This document shows, one piece after another, positions 22,378 to 60,685 of a stretch of DNA of 64,000 nt. The notes below the pieces were generated by a model that worked only from the letters and a program-made list of their open reading frames with translations, made no database searches and was not told the origin of the DNA. Where the stretch lies: IMG/VR virus record IMGVR_UViG_3300044608_001826, positions 1-64,000 of that record. One strand, 5' to 3'. Origin of the DNA: a virus. Position 1 is the stretch's first letter. The number at the start of each line of letters is the position of its first letter. A program made the position numbers and the translations under genes.

Positions 22378-24273
22378 TTATTTGTCCGCCCAGGATAAAC
22401 CTATGCCTGCATCTGCTTCAGCAGGTACTGTCTTAAGGACAACTTCTGCCGCAGAGATCATCGCCTCTTCTAATATTCGTTTATAATCTTCTGCTAACTC
22501 CTCTTTAACTTCCAATACGATTTCGTCGTGTACACACGCAACCATACGGGCATCGTCATTTAAATGTTGGTTTAGTTTAGATATAGCTATTTTTAAGATG
22601 TCCGCACCTGAGCCTTGTATAAGTGTGTTAGCACTACACATCATAGTAGCGTCATCGTAGCTTAAAAGTCTGCGGCGCCCACAGGCAGTTCGTACGTAAG
22701 CCCATCCATCTGCTACAAGAGCCGCTCTCTCTTTATGCCATTCACGCAAGCGTGGATACGCAGCATGGAACGCTGTATGAGCGACCTTAGCTTCCGACAG
22801 GCTGATTAATTTTCCGCTTTGAGCTGCGTATGTTTTATATTTTCTATAACCCATGCCATACAGTAACGCAAAGTTAAGAGTTTTACCATCCTGCCTCTCA
22901 TCTTTACTGACTTCATTCACATCTTTCTTATATATCAAACTCGCAGTCATCGTGTGAAGGTCAATTTTTTCTTTAAAAGCCTGCTTCATTTGAGGGATAT
23001 TTACGAGTTCTGCACCTAGTCGCAGTTCGATCTGAGCCCAGTCACAAATAATTAATTTGAAGCCTGGAGTAGTTATGAAAGCACTTCGGAAGTCTTTCGA
23101 GCGAGGTACCTGCTGGATGTTTACACCAAAAACTGATTTGATTTTACTCGCAGCGACCTTGGGAGCTCCACTACTTGTAAATCTCCCAGAGTTTGCCCCA
23201 TATTGATTGTAACCTGAGTGCATCCTGTGAGATATAGGGTTCACGTTTGCGAGTAATTTCTCTACGTGTTCCAGACGAGTTTCTGATTTGGCTCTGTCTC
23301 TATAAAGGTTTAGAGTCGTATCGTCGCTATCAAATTCAGCTAAGTCCACCTGATTGAGCGTGGGTTTTTCGGTTGTTTTCGAGAGTGGAACCGCTATCCC
23401 GCAGAGTTGGAAGGCCCGTATTACTTGTTGAGTTGATCCAGGATTAAATTCTTTCTTTGCATCTTTCCCAACAGCTATTTCTCCCGTTACTCGTTTAGGT
23501 AGTTTTTCGCCATCCGGCAGGCGAGCGTTTAGTTCCAGTACGAATTTATGAGTTTTTTCTTCAACTTCTTTTTCTACTTTAATTTTTAAGTCCTTTAATT
23601 TTTGAATGTCAACATTAAATCCTGTGCGACACATCATGGCCACAGGACGTATGCACTGACTTTCTAAAGAGTAAATCGATAGCAGGTTCTCTTCTTTTAG
23701 TTCTTCGAGCTGCTGTCGGGCGATAAGAGGTAGGACTAAAACGTCCTTAGCGGAGTACTTAATCTGTTCTTCGTTAAGTTCGTCTGCGCTCCAGTCAGAC
23801 ACTTGCTGCTCTTTATCTAGTTCGAGGCCCAGCCTTCTTTCAGCCACGGCTTTCAAACTGCAGGAAATATCTGCGAAGTAAGGCTTTTTCGTCTTTGGGG
23901 CTATCTTTCTTTCTTTGAAACCTGCTCTCAGTACCTTCTCGGCAATAAACGTACAGAAAACACGGTTTTTATAATCGCAGTTTATGGAGTAAAGAAACTG
24001 CAGATCGAAGTTTGCGTTGTGGATTACTAATGTTTCTCTCGATTCTATGTAGGTTTTAATTGGTTTCGATGAGATTTTAAACATATCGAACACATAAACG
24101 ATTTTATCTTCTTCACTTTCTTGCTCAGCAGAGCACATTTGGACTAAGCGAAGCTTGGCCACCCAACTGTCTAAACCAGTTGTTTCTGTGTCCAACGCTA
24201 TTTTTTTAGAGTCCTCCAGGTCAAGTAAAGCTTGTTTTGCTTCAACGTCTGATGTGATGTACTTAACTTTCAT
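22378..24273 (-). CDS. DNA polymerase, family A, with 3'-5' exonuclease
   Basis: 631 residues, without the 5'-nuclease domain, as in phage PolA proteins. The exonuclease domain (1-200) has IALDTETTGLD (Asp28, Glu30) and EEQIKYSAKDVL, with metal-binding acidic residues present. The polymerase domain has motif A LIICDWAQIELRLGAEL (about 410), motif B DGKTLNFALLYGMG (about 465) and motif C MVACVHDEIVLEV (about 580). The residue aligning with E. coli Phe762 is Phe. It is the replicative polymerase of the phage, working with the primase-helicase at 12-15 kb. All catalytic residues are intact. Confidence 0.96.
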   Translation of the reverse strand: MKVKYITSDVEAKQALLDLEDSKKIALDTETTGLDSWVAKLRLVQMCSAEQESEEDKIVYVFDMFKISSKPIKTYIESRETLVIHNANFDLQFLYSINCDYKNRVFCTFIAEKVLRAGFKERKIAPKTKKPYFADISCSLKAVAERRLGLELDKEQQVSDWSADELNEEQIKYSAKDVLVLPLIARQQLEELKEENLLSIYSLESQCIRPVAMMCRTGFNVDIQKLKDLKIKVEKEVEEKTHKFVLELNARLPDGEKLPKRVTGEIAVGKDAKKEFNPGSTQQVIRAFQLCGIAVPLSKTTEKPTLNQVDLAEFDSDDTTLNLYRDRAKSETRLEHVEKLLANVNPISHRMHSGYNQYGANSGRFTSSGAPKVAASKIKSVFGVNIQQVPRSKDFRSAFITTPGFKLIICDWAQIELRLGAELVNIPQMKQAFKEKIDLHTMTASLIYKKDVNEVSKDERQDGKTLNFALLYGMGYRKYKTYAAQSGKLISLSEAKVAHTAFHAAYPRLREWHKERAALVADGWAYVRTACGRRRLLSYDDATMMCSANTLIQGSGADILKIAISKLNQHLNDDARMVACVHDEIVLEVKEELAEDYKRILEEAMISAAEVVLKTVPAEADAGIGLSWADK

Positions 24274-24287
24274 GAGGTTTTTTGGGA

Positions 24288-24315
24288 ATAAAAGAGCCGC
24301 CTTTTCAGACGGCTC
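24288..24315 (-). terminator. Intrinsic terminator (leftward)
   Basis: A GAGCCG/CGGCTC stem with a 10-base loop is followed on the minus strand by a T-rich run (TTTTATTCC). It lies between the stop at 24344 and the polA start, so polA probably has its own promoter or is read through. Confidence 0.65.
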
Positions 24316-24343: not shown

Positions 24344-25135
24344 CTACGATGCTTGGCGCTGCCCGTGGAAGTTCATACGAATATAGTTATCGATATCCGC
24401 CCACGTCTCGTAGAGATCTTTACCTTTTTCTGTCGCTTTGAAGGAGTAGTACACACGCTGCATCTGCTCGGCATTCGGAGAGGTCTCGCGGTACGGAGAA
24501 CCAGTAGAAAGCCTCCGCCGTGAGCGGACGAGACCCTCCTCAACGCAGTAAGCAAGCCCCTCCCGTAAACCTAAGTAGATCGGAGCCACGTGGAAGGTAT
24601 GCCTGCGCTCAACCCCGTCACGGAGGAGGAGCGGCACCAAGGCACCTTCTTTAAACTCGAATCCTTTGAAGAACTTAGAGTTCTTTGCAACCGTAGGGTC
24701 GTTCCACATAAGGTTCGCAAAGAAGATCGCAGTTTCTCTCAGAGTCGACTCCTCCTTTGTTGACAACATCCTCATAATCATCGCAGCTCCTATCATCGGG
24801 TAGGAGGAGGACATGTTTATATCACTAATAATATCTTCTACGCTTTTTGTTTCATCTTTATATGGAATGATGTTTACTATTGTGTTTTTATTTTCTTTCT
24901 TCTTTGGAGCTTTATCCTTTGAAACGGATATCTTAAAAGCGAGAGAAGCAAGCTCTTGATTCTGGGTTTTTACAGCGAGATCAAAGAGTTTGCTACTGTT
25001 GAGTTCATCGACATTTACATAATCAGTAATGTCGATGTTGAGGGGTTTTTTGATCTTTGAGCTGGTCTGGATCAAAGCTTCCGCCTCTGCGTACAAGAGG
25101 GGTGAACCATGCAAAGAGAATTGAATGTCCATGTC
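24344..25135 (-). CDS. Hypothetical protein with possible DNA-binding C-terminus
   Basis: 263 residues from ATG 25135 (MDIQFSLHG); the longer frame would run over the upstream gene. Helical throughout: HGSPLLYAEAEALIQTSS, then DLAVKTQNQELASLAFKIS. The C-terminal 90 residues (YLGLREGLAYCVEEGLVRSRR, ending YSFKATEKGKDLYETW) read like a winged-helix domain, with a 'transcriptional regulator/archaeal PadR'-type helix pattern. Upstream of polA in the replication operon. Specific role unknown. Confidence 0.5.
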   Translation of the reverse strand, partial: DMDIQFSLHGSPLLYAEAEALIQTSSKIKKPLNIDITDYVNVDELNSSKLFDLAVKTQNQELASLAFKISVSKDKAPKKKENKNTIVNIIPYKDETKSVEDIISDINMSSSYPMIGAAMIMRMLSTKEESTLRETAIFFANLMWNDPTVAKNSKFFKGFEFKEGALVPLLLRDGVERRHTFHVAPIYLGLREGLAYCVEEGLVRSRRRLSTGSPYRETSPNAEQMQRVYYSFKATEKGKDLYETWADIDNYIRMNFHGQRQAS

Positions 25136-25200: not shown

Positions 25201-25665
25201 TTAATATTTGGGTTCGAGCGAGGCTTCCCTGAATACGGCTTCGATGTTCTCGCTCCACTGCTTGATCTCGCAGGCTATGTCCAAGCTGAGGTCGCAAAAA
25301 TCTTGTGCGTCCAATCGAATGTCCTTAGACAACATTCTTAAATCCTCTACGCCAAAATTTAAGTCTGTGTAAGTAGATATCGGTAAGGTTACGTCGTAAA
25401 CAGCCCCCGTGGGGGAAGGAACCCCTTCAGTGTTTATATCTAATTGGGGCTTTAGCAGATTGAATGTCCCTAAGTTCTTTCTGTACTCAATTAGGCATCC
25501 ATTGAAACGTTTGCAGCAAACAAACTCTTTCGGTTCATCTATATAATCTATCGCTATCTTTATGCAGGAGTGAACCCAATTATATAAAATCTCCAAAGAG
25601 TTTTCAGTTAACTCATACTTTTGTAGGACATCCAGAATCGTCGCACTGCAGTCATCTTTTGACAT
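25201..25665 (-). CDS. Hypothetical protein (154 aa)
   Basis: Starts at ATG 25665 (MSKDDCSATILDVL), which overlaps the upstream stop as TGATG. Helical N-terminus (LQKYELTENSLEILYNWVHS), then a cysteine pair (FVCCKRFNGC). The C-terminal half is acidic (LRMLSKDIRLDAQDFCDLSLDIA). Five cysteines are scattered without a clear zinc pattern. Co-transcribed with the MoxR-VWA genes upstream. Confidence 0.5.
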   Translation of the reverse strand: MSKDDCSATILDVLQKYELTENSLEILYNWVHSCIKIAIDYIDEPKEFVCCKRFNGCLIEYRKNLGTFNLLKPQLDINTEGVPSPTGAVYDVTLPISTYTDLNFGVEDLRMLSKDIRLDAQDFCDLSLDIACEIKQWSENIEAVFREASLEPKY

Positions 25666-25868
25666 CAGAATTCTTGCAGCGCTTTCCAAACCATCTTCCC
25701 ATCTATCCTTCCTACACAGATGAATAATTTATCCTCTGTTGTATTCCACCACAGTGCCCCGAGTCGAGCTTTATGAGGGAGATCAGGACCATCGTCAACC
25801 TTCTGATCATTACCTACGTAACGATCATGTACGGAGCGGATAACGTCTGCTGGGGAGTCAGGAGCCAT
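25665..25868 (-). CDS. Small protein with fibre-like WW/I-V motif
   Basis: 67 residues. N-terminal part is charged; the C-terminal half reads ARLGALWWNTTEDKLFICV, then MVWKAL. 'GALWWNT..DKLFI.....MVW' copies the tail-fibre trimerisation/peptide repeat 'G.lWwnt...lYv......W', and is odd next to the VWA gene. It begins 16 bases after the VWA stop. It may be a small adaptor or a transplanted fibre fragment. Confidence 0.5.
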   Translation of the reverse strand: MAPDSPADVIRSVHDRYVGNDQKVDDGPDLPHKARLGALWWNTTEDKLFICVGRIDGKMVWKALQEF

Positions 25869-25884
25869 CGTAGGATCACCAATT

Positions 25885-27435
25885 TCAGTTTAAACATTTC
25901 TGAATAACATCAATGGTTTTATCTGCGTCGTTAATGTCTACACTGTAAACATCATCGCTGAAGGATCTGCACACGGGAGGTACTGTTGTATTTATACACA
26001 CAGTGCTCCATTGAACTCCTTTGTTCTTTTTAAGATCATTGAGTTCTTTTATTCTACTCGTGTTGACTTCGCTTTCGCCGTCCGTAATCAAGAGGATGTC
26101 GGATTTTTCTAACAGGGTAGGCGACCTCAGAGCGTGGATAAGAACAGCGTTGAAGGATGTGCCGCCCCCAAGAGTCCACGTCCCAACAAAGTTTAAAAGC
26201 TCTGTATTCTTCTTGTCGTCTCCTTTTAGTTGAACTGATCCGTTTATCTGGGTGTCGAAGAGATGAATCTCAACGTCTCTCTTGTTTTTAGCTGCTTCCT
26301 CCGCAACCATGAACGCGATTGCTTTGCTCCACAGTTCCGGTTGACCGGACATAGAGCCTGATGTATCGATGTAAACGATTATCGGACCTTTGCCGATATC
26401 CTTTCTATGTGCTGTGTAGTCTTTAGTAAGCAAGCTCTTCTGAGTGTACCTGAGAGCGAACAAAGCTTTACCTTCCGGACTTGAAGCCAGTGCCATCTCT
26501 GCTGGGAATGCTCGAACAATATCGTCACTAAAAGAGACTCCCTTAATCTCTTCGTAAGTTGAAGCTATTTTCTTAGCTCGCTTACGCTCCTGCCAGATCC
26601 TGCGAAGAGCTCCAAGCTTTTCGACTAGCTTGCGAAGCTCGCGATTCGAGCGCAGTTTTTTAGCCAGCTCCAGCTTCTCCTGAAGGTTTGTCGTGTGCTT
26701 CCCTTTTCCCGGAGTGTCACCGTGGAGAGCACTGAGAGCCTCCGAAATATCGTCATTAGCCTGCAGAGCTCGGTCAACAACCTTCTGCGTTTTACTCTGC
26801 ATAGTTGGCTGTAGCTCTTGTAAAGCTTCTAAGATTTTCTGTCCCAACTTCTTACCTTGTTGCCTCGCCTTCTCAGCTTCTTCTTTATCGCCAGCTGCAT
26901 TAGCTTCTGCGAATTTCTCTCTCAGTTTTTCGAGCTCGTCGCCAGATCCGGTGAGAAGCTTTACGTCAAACTTCGACTGCTCTATTGCTTCTTCGATTAC
27001 TTTCGATAACTCGTTCAGGATGTTGATGGCATTATTACCTGCATTAAATTGATTCCCAACACTGCGCTCAAGCAAAGCTGGCCATGCTGCTGCCTGAGAG
27101 AGGTGAGCCATTATGGAGTACCACAAGGAATTCTCCGGCTTGTACCCTTGCGGGACAGCGCTGGTGTCACCATCACAGAAAGCCCTGAAGTAGTCTTCGA
27201 ATGCACTTTCTGTGACTAACCACGCAACATCATCTGCGTTATAAAGACGTTCAAATAACTCTTTGCCGAAGCGTGAGAGTTGTTTGATGTTGTATTGCTC
27301 TACAAGGTAGGTGATCGAAGGACGCGAATCCCTGATGAAGTCGTCCCATAAGAAGTCCGCAAGGGCGGAGCAAGCGAGTGTGAGAGGCTGTTCGTTTACA
27401 AGGCGGACAAATTCAGTCTGTTTGTCTTGTGTCAT
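25885..27435 (-). CDS. VWA-domain protein (ViaA/CoxE-like)
   Basis: 516 residues. N-terminal 300 residues are helical, with a charged linker (FAEANAAGDKEEAEKARQQG) and ELREHL-like helices. The C-terminal part is a von Willebrand A domain with an intact MIDAS: IVYIDTSGSMSG (Asp357, Ser359, Ser361), a WTLGGGTSF turn and ILLITDGESE. This helical-plus-VWA arrangement is that of ViaA/CoxE-type partners of MoxR AAA+ ATPases, and the MoxR gene lies one small gene upstream. In cellular pairs (RavA-ViaA, CbbQ-CbbO) the couple remodels or activates protein complexes. The phage target is unknown. Confidence 0.9.
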   Translation of the reverse strand: MTQDKQTEFVRLVNEQPLTLACSALADFLWDDFIRDSRPSITYLVEQYNIKQLSRFGKELFERLYNADDVAWLVTESAFEDYFRAFCDGDTSAVPQGYKPENSLWYSIMAHLSQAAAWPALLERSVGNQFNAGNNAINILNELSKVIEEAIEQSKFDVKLLTGSGDELEKLREKFAEANAAGDKEEAEKARQQGKKLGQKILEALQELQPTMQSKTQKVVDRALQANDDISEALSALHGDTPGKGKHTTNLQEKLELAKKLRSNRELRKLVEKLGALRRIWQERKRAKKIASTYEEIKGVSFSDDIVRAFPAEMALASSPEGKALFALRYTQKSLLTKDYTAHRKDIGKGPIIVYIDTSGSMSGQPELWSKAIAFMVAEEAAKNKRDVEIHLFDTQINGSVQLKGDDKKNTELLNFVGTWTLGGGTSFNAVLIHALRSPTLLEKSDILLITDGESEVNTSRIKELNDLKKNKGVQWSTVCINTTVPPVCRSFSDDVYSVDINDADKTIDVIQKCLN

Positions 27436-27595
27436 TTTGTTGCAGGAGTTTAAGTAATTGAACTTTTTTCTCCTCTACCAAGTGAGCAGAGGATACTGTA
27501 GCAGTTAACCCAGATACGTGCTGCACCTTGTAGCAATCGTTGCCGCACGTATCTACGTAGAAGTTTACATCAAACTCTGTATCGTCTATGATCAC
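27413..27595 (-). CDS. Small linker gene in the MoxR-VWA operon (60 aa)
   Basis: 60 residues from a GTG that overlaps the MoxR stop (GTGA) and overlapping the VWA start by 23 bases. It has FDVNFYVDTCGNDCYKVQHV followed by a helix (EEKKVQLLKLLQQ). The two cysteines four apart could be structural. The overlaps at both ends argue it is a real member translated in a 1:1:1 series with MoxR and VWA. Confidence 0.6.
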   Translation of the reverse strand: MIIDDTEFDVNFYVDTCGNDCYKVQHVSGLTATVSSAHLVEEKKVQLLKLLQQNDTRQTD

Positions 27596-28779
27596 CCGCT
27601 GAGCTCACTAATCTCTTTCGCTAGTGTATCGCAGTTATTCTCTAAAGCTTGAATAAGCTTCATCCCATTGGATCGTGAGGTTATCGACATCCTGTAACGG
27701 CTGCTATCGATAATTTCATTGACTTTCTCTTTAACTGTCACCATATCCTTGTAGTACTTTTTCAAGAGCCCGACAAACTCATTGAGGTCACCTAAGCCCT
27801 TTCCCTGATACCTGTGGGAGTACGTAGTGAACTCCGACATGATCCCTGCAGCAGCTCGCTTAGCGTCGCTGAAAATCTTATCTGCTGTCGGGATTTCTTG
27901 ATCTAAGACTTCCTTAATAACACCTTGATCCTCTTCGTTTTGATAAACAATATGGACAAGGCTGTCGTGCATGTGCTCTGCATACAGTTCATCGTCGCCT
28001 TGAACTACTGCCCACGCTTTGAGGAACTTGAGAATCTGCACTCGCCGCCTGTCAGAAACAGTGATGTTTCTGCTGGCAAGAAGGTCCCATACTGAGCTGT
28101 ACTTAGTGAGGAACTCTTCCCCAACCTGAACAGAGGCTACATGTTCTTGAAGTTCCTTTAACTCTGACAGAGTTAGGCAATCCGTAACGGTAGGGCGCTG
28201 CGTGATACCCAAAGCCCATTCGTCTAGCTTTCGCTTTGATACGGGCTTCCTAAGCAGATTCACCGTGGGGCGGAACAGGAAACGATCCGCGAAAGCCTGC
28301 AAGGATTCCTCCTCCGGCCAGCTATTCGTCGCGGCGATTATTGACTCAATCGGCGTGGTGATTACGTCCTTGCCGTTATTGAAAGTTCGCTCATTAAGGA
28401 GAGTCAAGAGAGAGTTCAGGATTGCCGAGCTACCACGGAACAGCTCGTCTAGAAAAGCAATATGTGCGCTAGGCAAATAGCCATCCACATCACGAGTGTA
28501 CTCATCGTTAAGCAGTTTCGTTACTGCTACTGGACCGAAAACCTCTGAGGGATCTGTTGTTGGTGTTAGAAGATAGCCGAAGTAGTTAGCGTCTACGATA
28601 CCGTTACACACGCTTCGTACTAAGTCAGACTTACCTGTACCAGGAACCCCCAGAAGAAATGCGTTCTGTTTGCTAAGGATGCACGCAAGCAGCCCATCGA
28701 TAACATGTTCCCGTTCTAGGGTCGCTGCGTTTAGATCGCTCCGAAAGTTTTGAAGTTTGGCGAAGAGAGTGTCGTTCAT
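27592..28779 (-). CDS. MoxR-family AAA+ ATPase (RavA-like)
   Basis: 395 residues from ATG 28779 (MNDTLFAKLQ); a TTG eight codons upstream is also possible. AAA+ motifs: Walker A FLLGVPGTGKSDLV (44-51), Walker B IAFLDELFRG (Asp111-Glu112), the MoxR insert (LNSLLTLLNERTFNNG), sensor 1 ATNSWPEE and a lid domain to about 290. The rest is a helical extension (VKEKVNEIIDSSRYRM). MoxR ATPases act as chaperones with VWA partners and form hexamers. The VWA partner is directly downstream, so this is a complete MoxR-VWA pair in a phage. Confidence 0.92.
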   Translation of the reverse strand: MNDTLFAKLQNFRSDLNAATLEREHVIDGLLACILSKQNAFLLGVPGTGKSDLVRSVCNGIVDANYFGYLLTPTTDPSEVFGPVAVTKLLNDEYTRDVDGYLPSAHIAFLDELFRGSSAILNSLLTLLNERTFNNGKDVITTPIESIIAATNSWPEEESLQAFADRFLFRPTVNLLRKPVSKRKLDEWALGITQRPTVTDCLTLSELKELQEHVASVQVGEEFLTKYSSVWDLLASRNITVSDRRRVQILKFLKAWAVVQGDDELYAEHMHDSLVHIVYQNEEDQGVIKEVLDQEIPTADKIFSDAKRAAAGIMSEFTTYSHRYQGKGLGDLNEFVGLLKKYYKDMVTVKEKVNEIIDSSRYRMSITSRSNGMKLIQALENNCDTLAKEISELSG

Positions 28780-28786
28780 TGGAAGG

Positions 28787-29005
28787 TCAGAAGGAGGATT
28801 CAAGAAGGGAATTTTTTCGTGGGAAAGGGACTGTTTCCTCAGTGATCCAGCACTGAGTGTTTAAGTAGCCGCTCACAGTTTTAAGTCTGTTAGTTGCGGT
28901 ATCAAAACTCGCAAACTGAACGGCTTTATCTACGGCGTACGTATACTTTTCTACGTCTTGTAGAAAACCTTTCTCGGATTTGATGACGAAAACAGTGCGG
29001 TCCAT
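28787..29005 (-). CDS. Small MoxR-VWA operon protein (72 aa)
   Basis: 72 residues, start overlaps the upstream stop (TAATG). Looks like a small alpha/beta fold: VFVIKSEKGFL, YAVDKAVQFASFDTATNRL, CWITEE. No motif is diagnostic. It ends 8 bases before the MoxR ATG. Always-overlapping spacing suggests stoichiometric production with MoxR. Confidence 0.55.
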   Translation of the reverse strand: MDRTVFVIKSEKGFLQDVEKYTYAVDKAVQFASFDTATNRLKTVSGYLNTQCWITEETVPFPRKNSLLESSF

Positions 29006-30213
29006 TAGAAGTCAGGTTCGTTAATGGGTTTGGTTTCGGTCTCGTCTTTTGTGACGCTTTCGATTAAGCCATCGAGATTCTCACTCATGGCACCGATTAG
29101 TTCCTTGCGTTGATTCATGAGCTTCTTAAGTTGTTTTGATCGTTGTGCGTAAATGTCTAGTTCAAGGTTTACGTCTTTTGTAAGGAGGTTTAAAGCATTA
29201 GCATTCTCAGCTGTCTTAATCCGTTCACACAGAGTCTTGTATGTCGAAGACAGTGCTAAGGATTGTTTAAGAGCTTCTAGTCCTTTTGTCGAGTCTCTGT
29301 TTTCACAGATCTCCTCAAGCTCCTTCCGAATCTCGTCTTGGACTTCGAAGAATCTCTCTGTAGCTTTCTGGCGAACGCCTCTGTCGCTTGCTTGGATGTC
29401 CACTCCAGTTTGTAGAAGTGAATCCGCGAGTTCTGTCAGCTTCTCAAAGCCAGCAACACTGTTACTGATTAGCTTCAGTTTCTGCGCAGTGATCTGCCAA
29501 CTACCTCTTTTCTTATCTCCTCCCGTTTGTTGCTTACCGATCTTTGTGATGTGACGAGAGTCGAGATCATCTAGAAGTTCTGAACTAAGCATCAAAGCTT
29601 TGTCAGCCGCATTATTCTGAGCAGCTTCGAGAACTTGCTGAGTATTGATCTGATTCTCATAAATGAGGAGGCTATCCAAGTCCCCTTCAACCGGTTTTTC
29701 TACCCGCTCCATCGATACAGGGAGTGGACCGAGAACAGAAACTCGAATCGGAGCTTTGTACTCTTCCTTCGTGGGGAAGAACTTCATGTAAGCATCGAAA
29801 GCGAGTTTGAACTCTTGGTCGTCGCTAAACAAAGGGCGCAGGATACCTTCTGCTGTTTGCTCCCATGCTTGGTACTCGTTTTCCCAGAGGTCTTTCAGTT
29901 TGTCGTTTGATTCCTTGGCTTTAGCTCGAATGTCTTTGATCAGCGCGTTAGCAGAATAAAAGTAGGTAGCAGTGACAAAGTGAGCGTCACCACTATGAAT
30001 GCAATAGCCGTCATAAAGTTCACGCTGCATAACGCGAAGGTTATCAAGCTCCGCTTTAAGTGCATTTGAGAGATTTGGGCGAAGGCTGACGGTGTTGTTC
30101 TTCTGAAGGGTTTCGATAACCGATTTAGGGAGTTTTAAGTCATCGAACTTAATCTGTACTGACTGACGTACGTCAGCGGAGATGGAGCAGGAAAGCAAAT
30201 AATGTGAGGTCAT
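29005..30213 (-). CDS. Helical/coiled-coil protein heading the MoxR-VWA operon
   Basis: 402 residues, mainly alpha-helical with long heptad stretches (TERFFEVQDEIRKELEEI; ENANALNLLTKDVNLELDI). No Walker motif or metal site. It is the first gene of a tight four- to five-gene series (30213 to 25885) linked by overlapping stop/start codons. It may be the substrate adaptor or a target scaffold of the MoxR-VWA pair, but nothing in the sequence proves it. Not recognised as a known family. Confidence 0.6.
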   Translation of the reverse strand: MTSHYLLSCSISADVRQSVQIKFDDLKLPKSVIETLQKNNTVSLRPNLSNALKAELDNLRVMQRELYDGYCIHSGDAHFVTATYFYSANALIKDIRAKAKESNDKLKDLWENEYQAWEQTAEGILRPLFSDDQEFKLAFDAYMKFFPTKEEYKAPIRVSVLGPLPVSMERVEKPVEGDLDSLLIYENQINTQQVLEAAQNNAADKALMLSSELLDDLDSRHITKIGKQQTGGDKKRGSWQITAQKLKLISNSVAGFEKLTELADSLLQTGVDIQASDRGVRQKATERFFEVQDEIRKELEEICENRDSTKGLEALKQSLALSSTYKTLCERIKTAENANALNLLTKDVNLELDIYAQRSKQLKKLMNQRKELIGAMSENLDGLIESVTKDETETKPINEPDF

Positions 30214-30246: not shown

Positions 30247-30278
30247 AAGAAAATCGCCTCTTCTTATTCAGAAGAGGC
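30247..30278 (-). terminator. Intrinsic terminator (leftward)
   Basis: A perfect 8-bp stem GCCTCTTC/GAAGAGGC with a 7-base loop, followed on the minus strand by GATTTTCTTC. It follows the small membrane gene ending at 30312 and precedes the MoxR-VWA operon, whose promoter should lie just downstream. Confidence 0.7.
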
Positions 30279-30487: not shown

Positions 30488-30910
30488 TTACTTGATACGA
30501 GAGAAAGCGAGAACGATCTTGTCGGTGACTCGATCGCATTCACCTTTAGCTACCAGCTCTTCAACTTCGTGCTTAAGTTGCATCTTCGCGAGCTTAAGCT
30601 CACTCTCTAGTTTATTCACTTTGTCAGCTAGTTTCTCCAGCTTATTGTGTTGGGCAGGTTTCTTATGAATACGAACAACGATGTTTGTATTAAATTGCGG
30701 AAATTTGAAACGGCTATCTGCTCCGGCGAACACGCTCAGGTCGAGCCCTTCAGTATCTGCGAGGGTAATGTCTCTCAGCAAATTATCTTTTGTCGCTTGG
30801 TAGGGAACGCCAAACGAACTATTGAGTTGTTGGCTTGCTTCGTCAAACTCATCGAAAGCTTCTGCCGCTTTCGTAGCTAGCGTGACAAGCTGCGTGGTTT
30901 TAATGGTCAT
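30488..30910 (-). CDS. Hypothetical coiled-coil protein (140 aa)
   Basis: 140 residues. Residues 1-60 are helical (LATKAAEAFDEFDEASQQL), the middle has RFKFPQFNTNIVVRIHKKP, and residues 90-130 form a coiled coil (LEKLADKVNKLESELKLAKMQL). The ATG is preceded by a CAGGAG site. No recognised family. It follows the atypical inverted-repeat leader at 30986-31057. Confidence 0.55.
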   Translation of the reverse strand: MTIKTTQLVTLATKAAEAFDEFDEASQQLNSSFGVPYQATKDNLLRDITLADTEGLDLSVFAGADSRFKFPQFNTNIVVRIHKKPAQHNKLEKLADKVNKLESELKLAKMQLKHEVEELVAKGECDRVTDKIVLAFSRIK

Positions 30911-38241: not shown

Positions 38242-38919
38242 ATGGCGACCTTAGTTGCAAATATCCCTCCCGTAAAAGTCTGGGTTCGGCGGGAATATCT
38301 TCGAGATTTACGTGACGGGCACGGTGAGTACACCCCAGGTTACTGGGTTACTTGCAAATCACTTACCGGACGGGCTCTTTACTTCGAGACGTACTTAACT
38401 GAGTACGGCGCTTTGTACGACAAGCTGCCGATCAGCGCGTTTCTAGCGTGGGAATCTGATTATCCCGATGCGCCTAGACCTCCCGAACCTGATTTAGAGC
38501 TGACAGACCTGCAGTTTTGGAACGGGTTTGATACGGGGCTTACCGTCATCGAGAAGAACTTGATCTACAACATGCGTTTTGAAGTCATGACACGCACTGC
38601 TGGTGTATTGGGGGGCACATACTTGTTCACAATCGACAATTACCATCCGCATAGGAACGAACCTGACCTTTATTTCGCTGAGGTTCCGGATGAGCACAAG
38701 TCGCACAATCTTGTTGTTTTGGACAACGGCCAAATTGGGGCTTATCCTAATAATCGCTGTCGAATGGTTGACCCATCTTTAACCAATAACGACCTCAAAA
38801 CACCCGATTTCAAGGTCTCTACGCGCTATTTCGACGTAGAAAACGCCCCGAAATGGGGTCGTTTGGGTGAATGTGATGATTATTTTTGGAAAACACCCCA
38901 AGAGCAAAACCCCACCTAG
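38242..38919 (+). CDS. Hypothetical protein (225 aa), first rightward gene
   Basis: 225 residues. It has the cyanophage-style alternating strand and turn pattern: PPVKVWVRREYLRD, HGEYTPGYWVTCKSL, YLFTIDNYHP and NLVVLDNGQIGAYPNNRCRMVDP. Aromatic-rich, no transmembrane helix, no catalytic motif. Such sequences are typical of cyanophage structural or early unknowns. It is the first gene after the divergent region, so probably strongly expressed. Confidence 0.6.
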   Translation: MATLVANIPPVKVWVRREYLRDLRDGHGEYTPGYWVTCKSLTGRALYFETYLTEYGALYDKLPISAFLAWESDYPDAPRPPEPDLELTDLQFWNGFDTGLTVIEKNLIYNMRFEVMTRTAGVLGGTYLFTIDNYHPHRNEPDLYFAEVPDEHKSHNLVVLDNGQIGAYPNNRCRMVDPSLTNNDLKTPDFKVSTRYFDVENAPKWGRLGECDDYFWKTPQEQNPT

Positions 38920-59164: not shown

Positions 59165-60685
59165 ATGCCGAGTCGGGAAACATTTGCGTATAGGCGTGCT
59201 GCTCAATTGCGTGCACTTAAGGCGTCTGAGGAGAACGATACCAACGTTAATACTATATACAGCAAGGCAGCGGACGATTTCCACACGTTTTGTACACTGC
59301 TAGATAAGCCTCCAGCGAAGCACATGCTGGAGTGGCATCGGCACTTGATCACAGGGGAGTCAAATAAATACCTATTAGATATCGCTGGGCCAAACCTTGA
59401 TATTCTGGCTCCTCGGGGTAGCGCTAAGTCCACGGCGCTCAACATGTTTACCGCGTGGATTATTGGGCGCCACACGACGGCTAGGTTACCCCTACAAATT
59501 ATTTACGTTTCGTACAACATCGCGACCGCTATACCTAAGAGTCGCATTATCCGTCAGATCATCGATTCGTCGGAATTCCGCAAGGTGTTCCCACGGGTGC
59601 GGTTGCGGGCGGGTATGCAGTCTGATATTGGTTGGTCTATCGACTTCGATTTTGCGGGCATTCCCCGCGTGGGCGATGAGGAATTCACCCTACGTGCTGC
59701 AGGTCTGCGAGGTTCGATTACGTCGAAACGTGCGCACCTCGTGATTGTGGATGACCCTATTAAGTCGAGTGCGGATATTCGAAATCCCGCTATTAGGGAT
59801 GAGATGAACAATAACTGGTCCTCGGTTATCGCGCCGATTATCTTCGAAGGTGGTCGATCCATCTGTCTGGGTACTCGATTCCACCCGCTGGACATTCATA
59901 AGACGATGTTCGTGCCGGAAAAGGGGTGGAAGCAAGTAACGCAAGAAGCTATTACGTACGACTCTCACGGCAATCCGGTCAGCTATTGGCCAGAGCAGTG
60001 GTCGACAGAGTATTTGCTTCAACAGAAAGAGCTGGATCCGGTTGCGTTCGCGTTCCAGTACCAGCAGCAACCTGTTATGACATCTGATCTGGTTGTGTCG
60101 CCAGATCTCCTTATTAAGGGTGAAGTCGTTACTGAGTTCGATACGCTCGCCGTGGGCATCGACTTATCGGCTAGTAAGAACGAAACGAGCGACTACACCG
60201 CGTTCGTTTTGGGTGGGCGCTTAAAGGACAAGTACTACATCATCGATTCACATCAGTGCCGCTCGATTGGCAACTTGGAGAAGATCGATATGTTGTGCGA
60301 TATGTTGCTGGAATGGGGGATTCTGACGCAGCACGATAATCAGTTCCTGCCGACGTATTCGACTGTGACCCTCGTGGTGGAATCTGTTGCGTACCAAGCA
60401 TCGCTAGCGGCAGATCTTCGACGGGTCTTGGTGAATGAGCGTGAACTCGGGAACCTCCATATCCACGAGGTCAAGGGTTTCAGGGGGGATAAGGTTGCTC
60501 GTTTTAGGGGGACGTTGGGTTTGTTGGAAAACAAGAAGATTATCTTTAATAAGTACCGGAAGTTTGACGCATTATTTGAGCAGCTGATCAACGTTGGCTC
60601 TACAGCGCACGATGATTTGTTAGACGCATATACTTGGCTTATTCAGTTCCTACAGCGACGCGGGGAGTTTACTATCGAATATTGA
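59165..60685 (+). CDS. Large terminase subunit
   Basis: 506 residues. ATPase: Walker A ILAPRGSAKST (about 80-90), Walker B RAHLVIVDDPIKSS (about 193-206). Nuclease: LAVGIDLSASKNETSDYTAF (first aspartate) and TAHDDLLDAYTWLI (last aspartates). The layout is that of large terminases (TerL), which package DNA and cut concatemers. It is the strongest evidence that the whole window is a tailed phage. No small terminase is clearly visible, though a helical protein at 56320 is close by. Confidence 0.93.
   Translation: MPSRETFAYRRAAQLRALKASEENDTNVNTIYSKAADDFHTFCTLLDKPPAKHMLEWHRHLITGESNKYLLDIAGPNLDILAPRGSAKSTALNMFTAWIIGRHTTARLPLQIIYVSYNIATAIPKSRIIRQIIDSSEFRKVFPRVRLRAGMQSDIGWSIDFDFAGIPRVGDEEFTLRAAGLRGSITSKRAHLVIVDDPIKSSADIRNPAIRDEMNNNWSSVIAPIIFEGGRSICLGTRFHPLDIHKTMFVPEKGWKQVTQEAITYDSHGNPVSYWPEQWSTEYLLQQKELDPVAFAFQYQQQPVMTSDLVVSPDLLIKGEVVTEFDTLAVGIDLSASKNETSDYTAFVLGGRLKDKYYIIDSHQCRSIGNLEKIDMLCDMLLEWGILTQHDNQFLPTYSTVTLVVESVAYQASLAADLRRVLVNERELGNLHIHEVKGFRGDKVARFRGTLGLLENKKIIFNKYRKFDALFEQLINVGSTAHDDLLDAYTWLIQFLQRRGEFTIEY

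Follow-up and report, generated by a model that had tools for sequence, protein, structure and literature searches.

What does a phage do with a MoxR AAA+ ATPase and a VWA co-chaperone, and why is a long helical protein encoded beside them? The question is raised by a leftward gene series at positions 25885-30213 of a 64,000-nucleotide stretch of DNA (the window), which makes up the first 64 kb of the IMG/VR virus record IMGVR_UViG_3300044608_001826 (87,475 bases). So far, phage MoxR-VWA pairs have been interpreted as virion-assembly or stress genes. Here we describe the pair as part of a trio, with the helical protein (called HEL below) as third member, which is near-universal in a cyanophage lineage and also present on plasmids. 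This shifts the question to a need that is common to both kinds of element.

A MoxR-VWA pair with a constant helical partner

The three genes in question are the following:
29005-30213, minus strand: HEL, a mostly helical protein of 402 aa, candidate adaptor or client (ORF, presence in 69 of 70 contigs, plasmid homologues, AlphaFold2 (AF2) model, fold match)
27592-28779, minus strand: MoxR AAA+ ATPase of 395 aa, bpMoxR-type, without the RavA LARA domain (PF20030 with E 1.8e-55, RavA structure match, Walker motifs)
25885-27435, minus strand: VWA co-chaperone of 516 aa, with a helical N-terminal part and a C-terminal VWA domain with an intact metal ion-dependent adhesion site (MIDAS) (PF13519, PF05762, ViaA model match, VWA fold)

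The MoxR protein passed the curated AAA_5/MoxR cut-off with both Walker motifs intact, and its Pfam scores were 187.6 bits for PF20030 (bpMoxR; cut-off 27), 73.9 for PF07728 (22) and 28.2 for the PF17868 lid (22.8). We placed its start at the ATG at 28779, which aligns with the relatives, and not at the TTG at 28803, which does not. In alignments of 30 relatives for each protein no variation was seen in Walker A (GxPGTGKS) and Walker B (D111-E112) of MoxR, or in the MIDAS residues of VWA (D357-x-S359-x-S361, T426 and D452); the latter were also retained in nearly all plasmid relatives. The VWA protein passed the cut-offs of both PF13519 and PF05762, and a fold match supports its VWA domain. 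Its structure model, helical in the N-terminal part, was of moderate quality (predicted local distance difference test (pLDDT) 71), with low confidence for residues 288-347 ahead of the VWA domain. The chaperone pair with intact MIDAS proposed in the first-pass annotation is thus supported by the catalytic and MIDAS residues that are kept in both proteins.

The same annotation had called the ATPase RavA/MoxR-type. The MoxR part of this name stood (PF20030), and the RavA part did not: the curated RavA model NF010054 gave 131 bits of the 681 needed, the match to RavA structures covered only residues 8-268 and ended there, and no LARA domain was present. The ViaA model matched VWA residues 199-497, with 71 bits of the 500 needed for the curated NF008230.

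The phage can be assigned from its sequence to cyanophages of a lineage related to Synechococcus phage S-EIV1, in agreement with the origin suggested earlier, because its TerL (59165-60685, plus strand) is 52.6% identical to that of S-EIV1, some 30 ORFs are common to the two phages (one at 82% identity), and module-bearing contigs have a TerL 74-91% identical to that of the window. This range held for 11 of 16 large module-bearing contigs and for every tested one of at least 75 kb. In S-EIV1 itself, HEL, MoxR and VWA were not found by tblastn and profile searches.

To follow the trio in this lineage, IMG/VR was scanned with VWA, MoxR, HEL and the neighbouring family A DNA polymerase (PolA), and 90 contigs obtained with the first three queries went into a gene-order table; the counts below refer to the 70 contigs where MoxR has enough flank. 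The order HEL-MoxR-VWA was kept in 69 of them, and the mean column identity of the three alignments was 67-76%. Other genes of the region were present in varying numbers: a 140-aa gene upstream of HEL (g140) in 69, a 263-aa gene in 69, PolA in 68, a 72-aa gene in 49 and a 60-aa gene in five. The exception (contig L031) had MoxR-VWA without HEL, and the DNA upstream of MoxR looked unrelated; this layout may come from recombination or from a chimeric assembly. The upstream part of this contig (L031:1-6148) held unrelated small genes, including several copies of a MTQEHPITPPPEL gene family. The distances between genes varied widely among relatives, from 3 to 975 nt for HEL-MoxR and from -3 to 915 nt for MoxR-VWA, so that the module does not entail production of all the proteins in a fixed ratio, as had been expected in the first-pass annotation.

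When the search was started from the polymerase, VWA was seen at 41 of the 44 PolA loci having more than 4 kb upstream. No MoxR was found in the other three contigs, which may be too short to show VWA, since VWA and the 263-aa gene are about 4-7 kb apart in some relatives. Mirror-tree comparisons, with PolA and g140 as neighbour comparisons, gave r values of 0.94 for HEL-MoxR, 0.94 for MoxR-VWA and 0.88 for HEL-VWA, and of 0.61-0.78 for PolA with the three (0.57-0.82 as the PolA range is given elsewhere in the analysis); all these values leave shared ancestry in. In a clade of nine contigs a different PolA was present and HEL-MoxR-VWA was unchanged.

HEL has homologues in the same position on plasmids

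HEL had no sequence match in Pfam, PHROG, NCBIfam or PDB. Comparison of profiles nevertheless placed it beside cyanobacterial plasmid proteins: over about 350 columns, the HEL profile matched a protein of a Chroococcidiopsis plasmid (hhalign E 2.8e-15, hmmsearch 4e-24) and one of an Acaryochloris plasmid (hhalign E 6.5e-13, hmmsearch 1e-17), while shuffled and reversed control sequences gave E values of at least 0.08. They are hypothetical proteins of 442-469 aa, and on Chroococcidiopsis pCHRO.01 and pA as well as Acaryochloris pREC1 their gene lies just upstream of MoxR-VWA. As judged from the profiles, HEL is homologous to these plasmid proteins, which occupy the same slot, and the idea of HEL as a phage-only protein was dropped. 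A pattern scan for HEL in 85k genomes had found nothing; this is no evidence of absence, because the profile comparison did find the plasmid homologues.

The plasmid trios resemble that of the window in gene order and in the homology of all three proteins, HEL, MoxR and VWA. They differ in a HEL that is about 20% identical and has an N-terminal extension of about 45 aa, and in a series interrupted either by toxin-antitoxin genes or by 1.3 kb in which no gene is evident. The HEL-bearing Chroococcidiopsis and Acaryochloris plasmids were typed as conjugative. In the MoxR tree the HEL-type phages and plasmids formed one clade (support 100/96), and the VWA tree did not settle how the phage and plasmid members group. 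According to these profile and tree comparisons, HEL and MoxR of the phages and of the cyanobacterial plasmids share common descent.

The structure of HEL was approached with an AF2 model (pLDDT 84.5). A PDB fold search found nothing significant among solved structures. In BFVD the model matched eight phage proteins at E <= 0.001, one of them named DUF3150. Foldseek gave E 1e-5, probability 1.00 and TM 0.40/0.50 (0.50 by target length) for the DUF3150-type protein A0A6J7WV52, and a weaker match (E 0.012, probability 0.98) for a protein of Mycobacterium phage Dylan. DUF3150 (PF11348) was absent among the listed Pfam hits of 30 HEL members; it was also not found in two phage records, where the controls found nothing either. 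We observed no sequence relation of HEL to gp148 of Aphanizomenon phage CL131 or to DUF7192; in mycobacteriophage Snenia, a DUF7192 gene has a CobS-like AAA+ gene nearby. The idea of HEL as a VMAP or beta-propeller component was rejected, as the VMAP model was absent among the Pfam matches shown for 30 HEL members and no propeller domain was present in VWA or HEL.

A parallel trio with DUF6744

The VWA query matched plasmids of Pseudanabaena, Acaryochloris, Chroococcidiopsis, Bacillota and Actinomycetota. On all eight DUF6744 plasmids that we examined (Pseudanabaena, two of Alicyclobacillus, two of Brevibacillus, Streptomyces, Nocardia and Rubrobacter) the third gene encodes DUF6744, and Moorella phage MTATph1 also has a DUF6744-MoxR-VWA trio. 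The layout is similar to that of the window, with the third gene mostly first and with the same MoxR and VWA families; DUF6744 and HEL, however, are unrelated by profile comparison (hhalign E 0.19 over 17 columns), and HEL falls outside the DUF6744 family by sequence. Relatives of DUF6744 were not found in the viral contigs searched. TM-scores of 0.4-0.57 are no more than suggestive of a fold that these third proteins may have in common.

The first-pass annotation had taken the helical gene for a constant partner of the pair. This was true within the lineage, in the 69 contigs described above, but no HEL was found beside the MoxR-VWA genes of MTATph1, CL131 and the faecal phage contigs examined. 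In CL131 (L110:3054-4379) the MIDAS of VWA is lost, with EESAA in place of DxSGS, and MoxR is intact. A further candidate, the pair of Campylobacter phages A11a/A18a (L111, MG065691.1, A11a unverified), was rejected as a phage example: it is near-identical to enterobacterial RavA-ViaA and probably a contamination.

Genes of DNA metabolism were seen near several of these loci. The dnaN gene immediately precedes the trio in two Alicyclobacillus plasmids, is about 5 kb ahead of it in Brevibacillus marinus and immediately follows MoxR-VWA in phage CL131, and an SSB gene is near the Pseudanabaena plasmid trio. We also noticed ubiquitin-like conjugation genes (ThiF, Mov34/MPN, E2 family D) near the Pseudanabaena, Brevibacillus and Chroococcidiopsis plasmid trios (L222, L225, L229).

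In the open-licence literature we found no description of the HEL trio, DUF6744 or DUF3150. The comparison gives the abundant orphan HEL a first family context and reveals a second, parallel DUF6744 trio on plasmids of other phyla.

Small genes and limits of the unit

The further features of the region are:
30488-30910, minus strand: g140, a 140-aa protein, constant upstream neighbour of HEL (69 of 70 contigs)
30256-30278, minus strand: terminator-like hairpin upstream of HEL (with counterparts in 25 of 48 contigs)
28787-29005, minus strand: s72, a 72-aa protein (in the HEL-MoxR interval of 49 of 70 contigs, at about 30-54% identity)
27413-27595, minus strand: s60, a 60-aa protein, lineage-restricted (related sequence in five of 70 contigs)
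25665-25868, minus strand: ORF of 67 aa in the same series, poorly conserved (ORF, comparison with relatives)
25201-25689, minus strand: ORF of 162 aa in the same series, poorly conserved (ORF, comparison with relatives)
24344-25135, minus strand: g317, a 263-aa protein, final gene of the unit and as constant as HEL (69 of 70 contigs)
24294-24315, minus strand: terminator-like hairpin after the 263-aa gene, ahead of PolA (with counterparts in 49 of 53 contigs)
22378-24273, minus strand: PolA, family A DNA polymerase, constant downstream neighbour outside the unit (phrog_17 with E 1.6e-101; 68 contigs)

All five ORFs of the minus-strand series HEL-s72-MoxR-s60-VWA were confirmed where they had been annotated, overlapping or nearly touching: HEL and the 72-aa ORF have one base in common (29005), the stop of the latter is 7 bases ahead of the MoxR ATG, and the 60-aa ORF overlaps MoxR by 4 bases and VWA by 23. 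Neither small protein belongs to a family in Pfam or PHROGs. Because HEL and the 72-aa ORF are conserved at the protein level, we regard them as real genes; by comparison with its relatives, the 60-aa ORF is a real but restricted gene. Of the small genes expected to stay beside MoxR-VWA, therefore, the 72-aa gene mostly did and the 60-aa gene did not.

The operon is also longer than the five genes first proposed, as the ORFs of 67 and 162 aa follow, and then the 263-aa gene with its hairpin. Equivalents of this hairpin (24294-24315) were present despite differing sequences in 49 of 53 contigs, in comparison to three of 265 control stretches of coding DNA. From the hairpins at 24315-24294 and 30278-30256 we conclude that the natural unit runs from HEL through the 263-aa gene, apparently as a transcription unit of its own bounded by terminator-like hairpins, and that transcription of PolA is probably separate or dependent on read-through. 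A coupling of the unit to PolA was given up as the main idea in view of this hairpin and of the exchange of PolA in one clade. Promoter-like matches in the unit region showed no excess over chance expectation. The unit lies on the strand and arm of the replication genes (leftward; primase, exonuclease, PolA), opposite TerL and the tail genes.

For the 263-aa protein no known family and no Pfam or PDB match was found; its C-terminal end resembles by eye a winged helix (YYxxxLTExG), which no profile confirms. Elsewhere in the window, the product of 38242-38919 (plus strand) is 82% identical to an S-EIV1 protein annotated as PurM, and PHROG 3704 names the family ferredoxin; Pfam and NCBIfam recognised neither PurM nor ferredoxin in it. 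An intein-like in-frame insert of about 330 aa after about residue 199 is present in the 846-aa TerL of S-EIV1 and in that of two IMG/VR contigs, and is not in the window TerL.

What the trio may do

In cryo-electron microscopy structures of NorQD a finger of the VWA protein sits in the pore of the MoxR hexamer, and the C-terminus of this protein rests on the post-sensor-1 loop. The model proposed by the authors is that the VWA protein is twisted and stretched as ATP is turned over, and that the client is remodelled in this way; they presume that the finger-in-pore arrangement is general (PMC13036017; PMC9976466). As the catalytic and MIDAS residues are retained in MoxR and VWA of the window, a machine of this kind may fairly be expected here. 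By analogy to NorQD and related systems, MoxR would form a hexamer with the VWA domain plugging the ring and its finger in the pore, and ATP turnover would twist VWA, thereby pulling apart or remodelling a client held via its MIDAS. HEL, because of its constancy and co-inheritance, could be the client adaptor or the client itself, and it offers a handle on the client of MoxR-VWA. The least certain step is the client, which may be a replication or maintenance complex, e.g. clamp, SSB or polymerase assemblies; this is suggested by the place of the phage unit in the replication arm and by the plasmid trios, which repeatedly lie near dnaN, SSB, primase or helicase genes. We tentatively favour this reading as a whole, in which a finger-in-pore chaperone, with HEL as its adaptor or its client, would act on a complex from the DNA-metabolism phase of the element, and put it at somewhat under an even chance. 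As the same trio occurs on cyanobacterial plasmids, it probably serves something common to viruses and plasmids rather than the building of virus particles or photosynthesis.

Several observations weigh against this reading. The nearness to replication genes was noted in a few plasmids, and genes of this sort are abundant on large plasmids. PolA itself is unlikely as the client, because it was exchanged in the nine-contig clade while the trio stayed and because a hairpin separates them. S-EIV1 lives without the module, the finger was not directly seen in the moderate VWA model, and there is no sequence relation between HEL and DUF6744. A wider form of the proposal would make MoxR-VWA plus a helical third protein a class of chaperone general to large mobile elements, phages as well as plasmids, which would use it to service their own replication or maintenance machinery; HEL, DUF6744 and DUF3150/DUF7192-type proteins would then be client adaptors that can replace one another or have an ancient common origin. 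This appears doubtful to us, yet worth considering.

The main rival is a close one: the trio could dismantle or block a host defence complex, or act against competing elements. The trio occurs both in phages and on plasmids from many hosts, two kinds of element that host defence targets, toxin-antitoxin genes lie close to some plasmid copies, and PF20030, to which MoxR belongs, was named after a predicted conflict ternary system, four such MoxR-vWA systems being described by Kaur et al. 2020. Patchy and fast-changing conflict genes, on the other hand, are unlike a trio that is highly conserved and near-universal in its lineage; VWA and HEL have no effector domain, and nothing convincing matched PADLOC, on which ground membership in a defence system was rejected. 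We consider a counter-defence or conflict role possible, at a good deal less than even chances.

The remaining two explanations, both raised in the first-pass annotation, fared worse. A virion assembly chaperone, as proposed for p618/p892 of Acidianus two-tailed virus (ATV) and for group 2.2 jumbo phages, has a virion-associated precedent in the ATV pair (PMC4124505; PMC7824862), whose proteins are distant homologues of those in the window. It is unlikely for this unit, which shares its strand and arm with the replication genes and not with TerL or the tail genes, and whose trio, or its DUF6744 version, is found on plasmids. Remodelling of a host metabolic complex, either Rubisco/carboxysome or respiratory enzymes in the manner of CbbQ-CbbO or RavA-ViaA, is what cellular MoxR-VWA pairs do (PMC4660213, PMC3893208), and the host is a cyanobacterium. 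We find it very improbable, given the RavA and ViaA scores far under cut-off, the absence of a metabolic gene from the unit, and the DUF6744-type trios on plasmids of Bacillota and Actinomycetota. Both are poor general answers, because plasmids, among them those typed as conjugative, have no virions, and because the plasmid hosts among Bacillota and Actinomycetota share no carboxysome or Rubisco with cyanobacteria; this holds with the reserve that the job of the DUF6744 trio may differ from that of the HEL trio.

Comparison with known MoxR-VWA systems

Phage MoxR-VWA pairs were known earlier from ATV (PMC4124505), group 2.2 jumbo phages (PMC7824862), Bacillus phage 0305phi8-36 and, by its annotation, CL131. 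The ATV pair is viral as well, but it is a virion component, its two genes lie about 7 kb apart and it has no HEL. The phage DUF3150-type proteins may be comparable to HEL, as the fold match of its model suggests, with no PF11348 match among the listed hits.

RavA-ViaA of E. coli, NorQ-NorD and CbbQ-CbbO likewise consist of adjacent genes for a MoxR AAA+ ATPase and a MIDAS-bearing VWA co-chaperone; the window unit differs from them in the missing LARA domain, in scores below the curated cut-offs, in the extra constant HEL and in being borne by phages and plasmids. The ternary conflict systems of Kaur et al. 2020 (VMAP, iSTAND, FtsH and beta-propeller) are similar in design, with MoxR, VWA and a constant third protein, and the window MoxR matches PF20030 (bpMoxR). 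However, the third protein here is HEL and none of those four, and effector domains are missing. In the VMAP system MoxR has an N-terminal extension with WxhapG and PsWRxa motifs (PMC7159879), whereas the bpMoxR domain of the window protein begins at residue 8, with no such extension; nor is a beta-propeller fused to VWA, whose N-terminal part is helical. By these sequence comparisons the HEL trio scores under the cut-offs of RavA and ViaA, lies outside the ternary definitions of Kaur et al. 2020, and stands beside both as a MoxR-VWA system with a third protein of its own.

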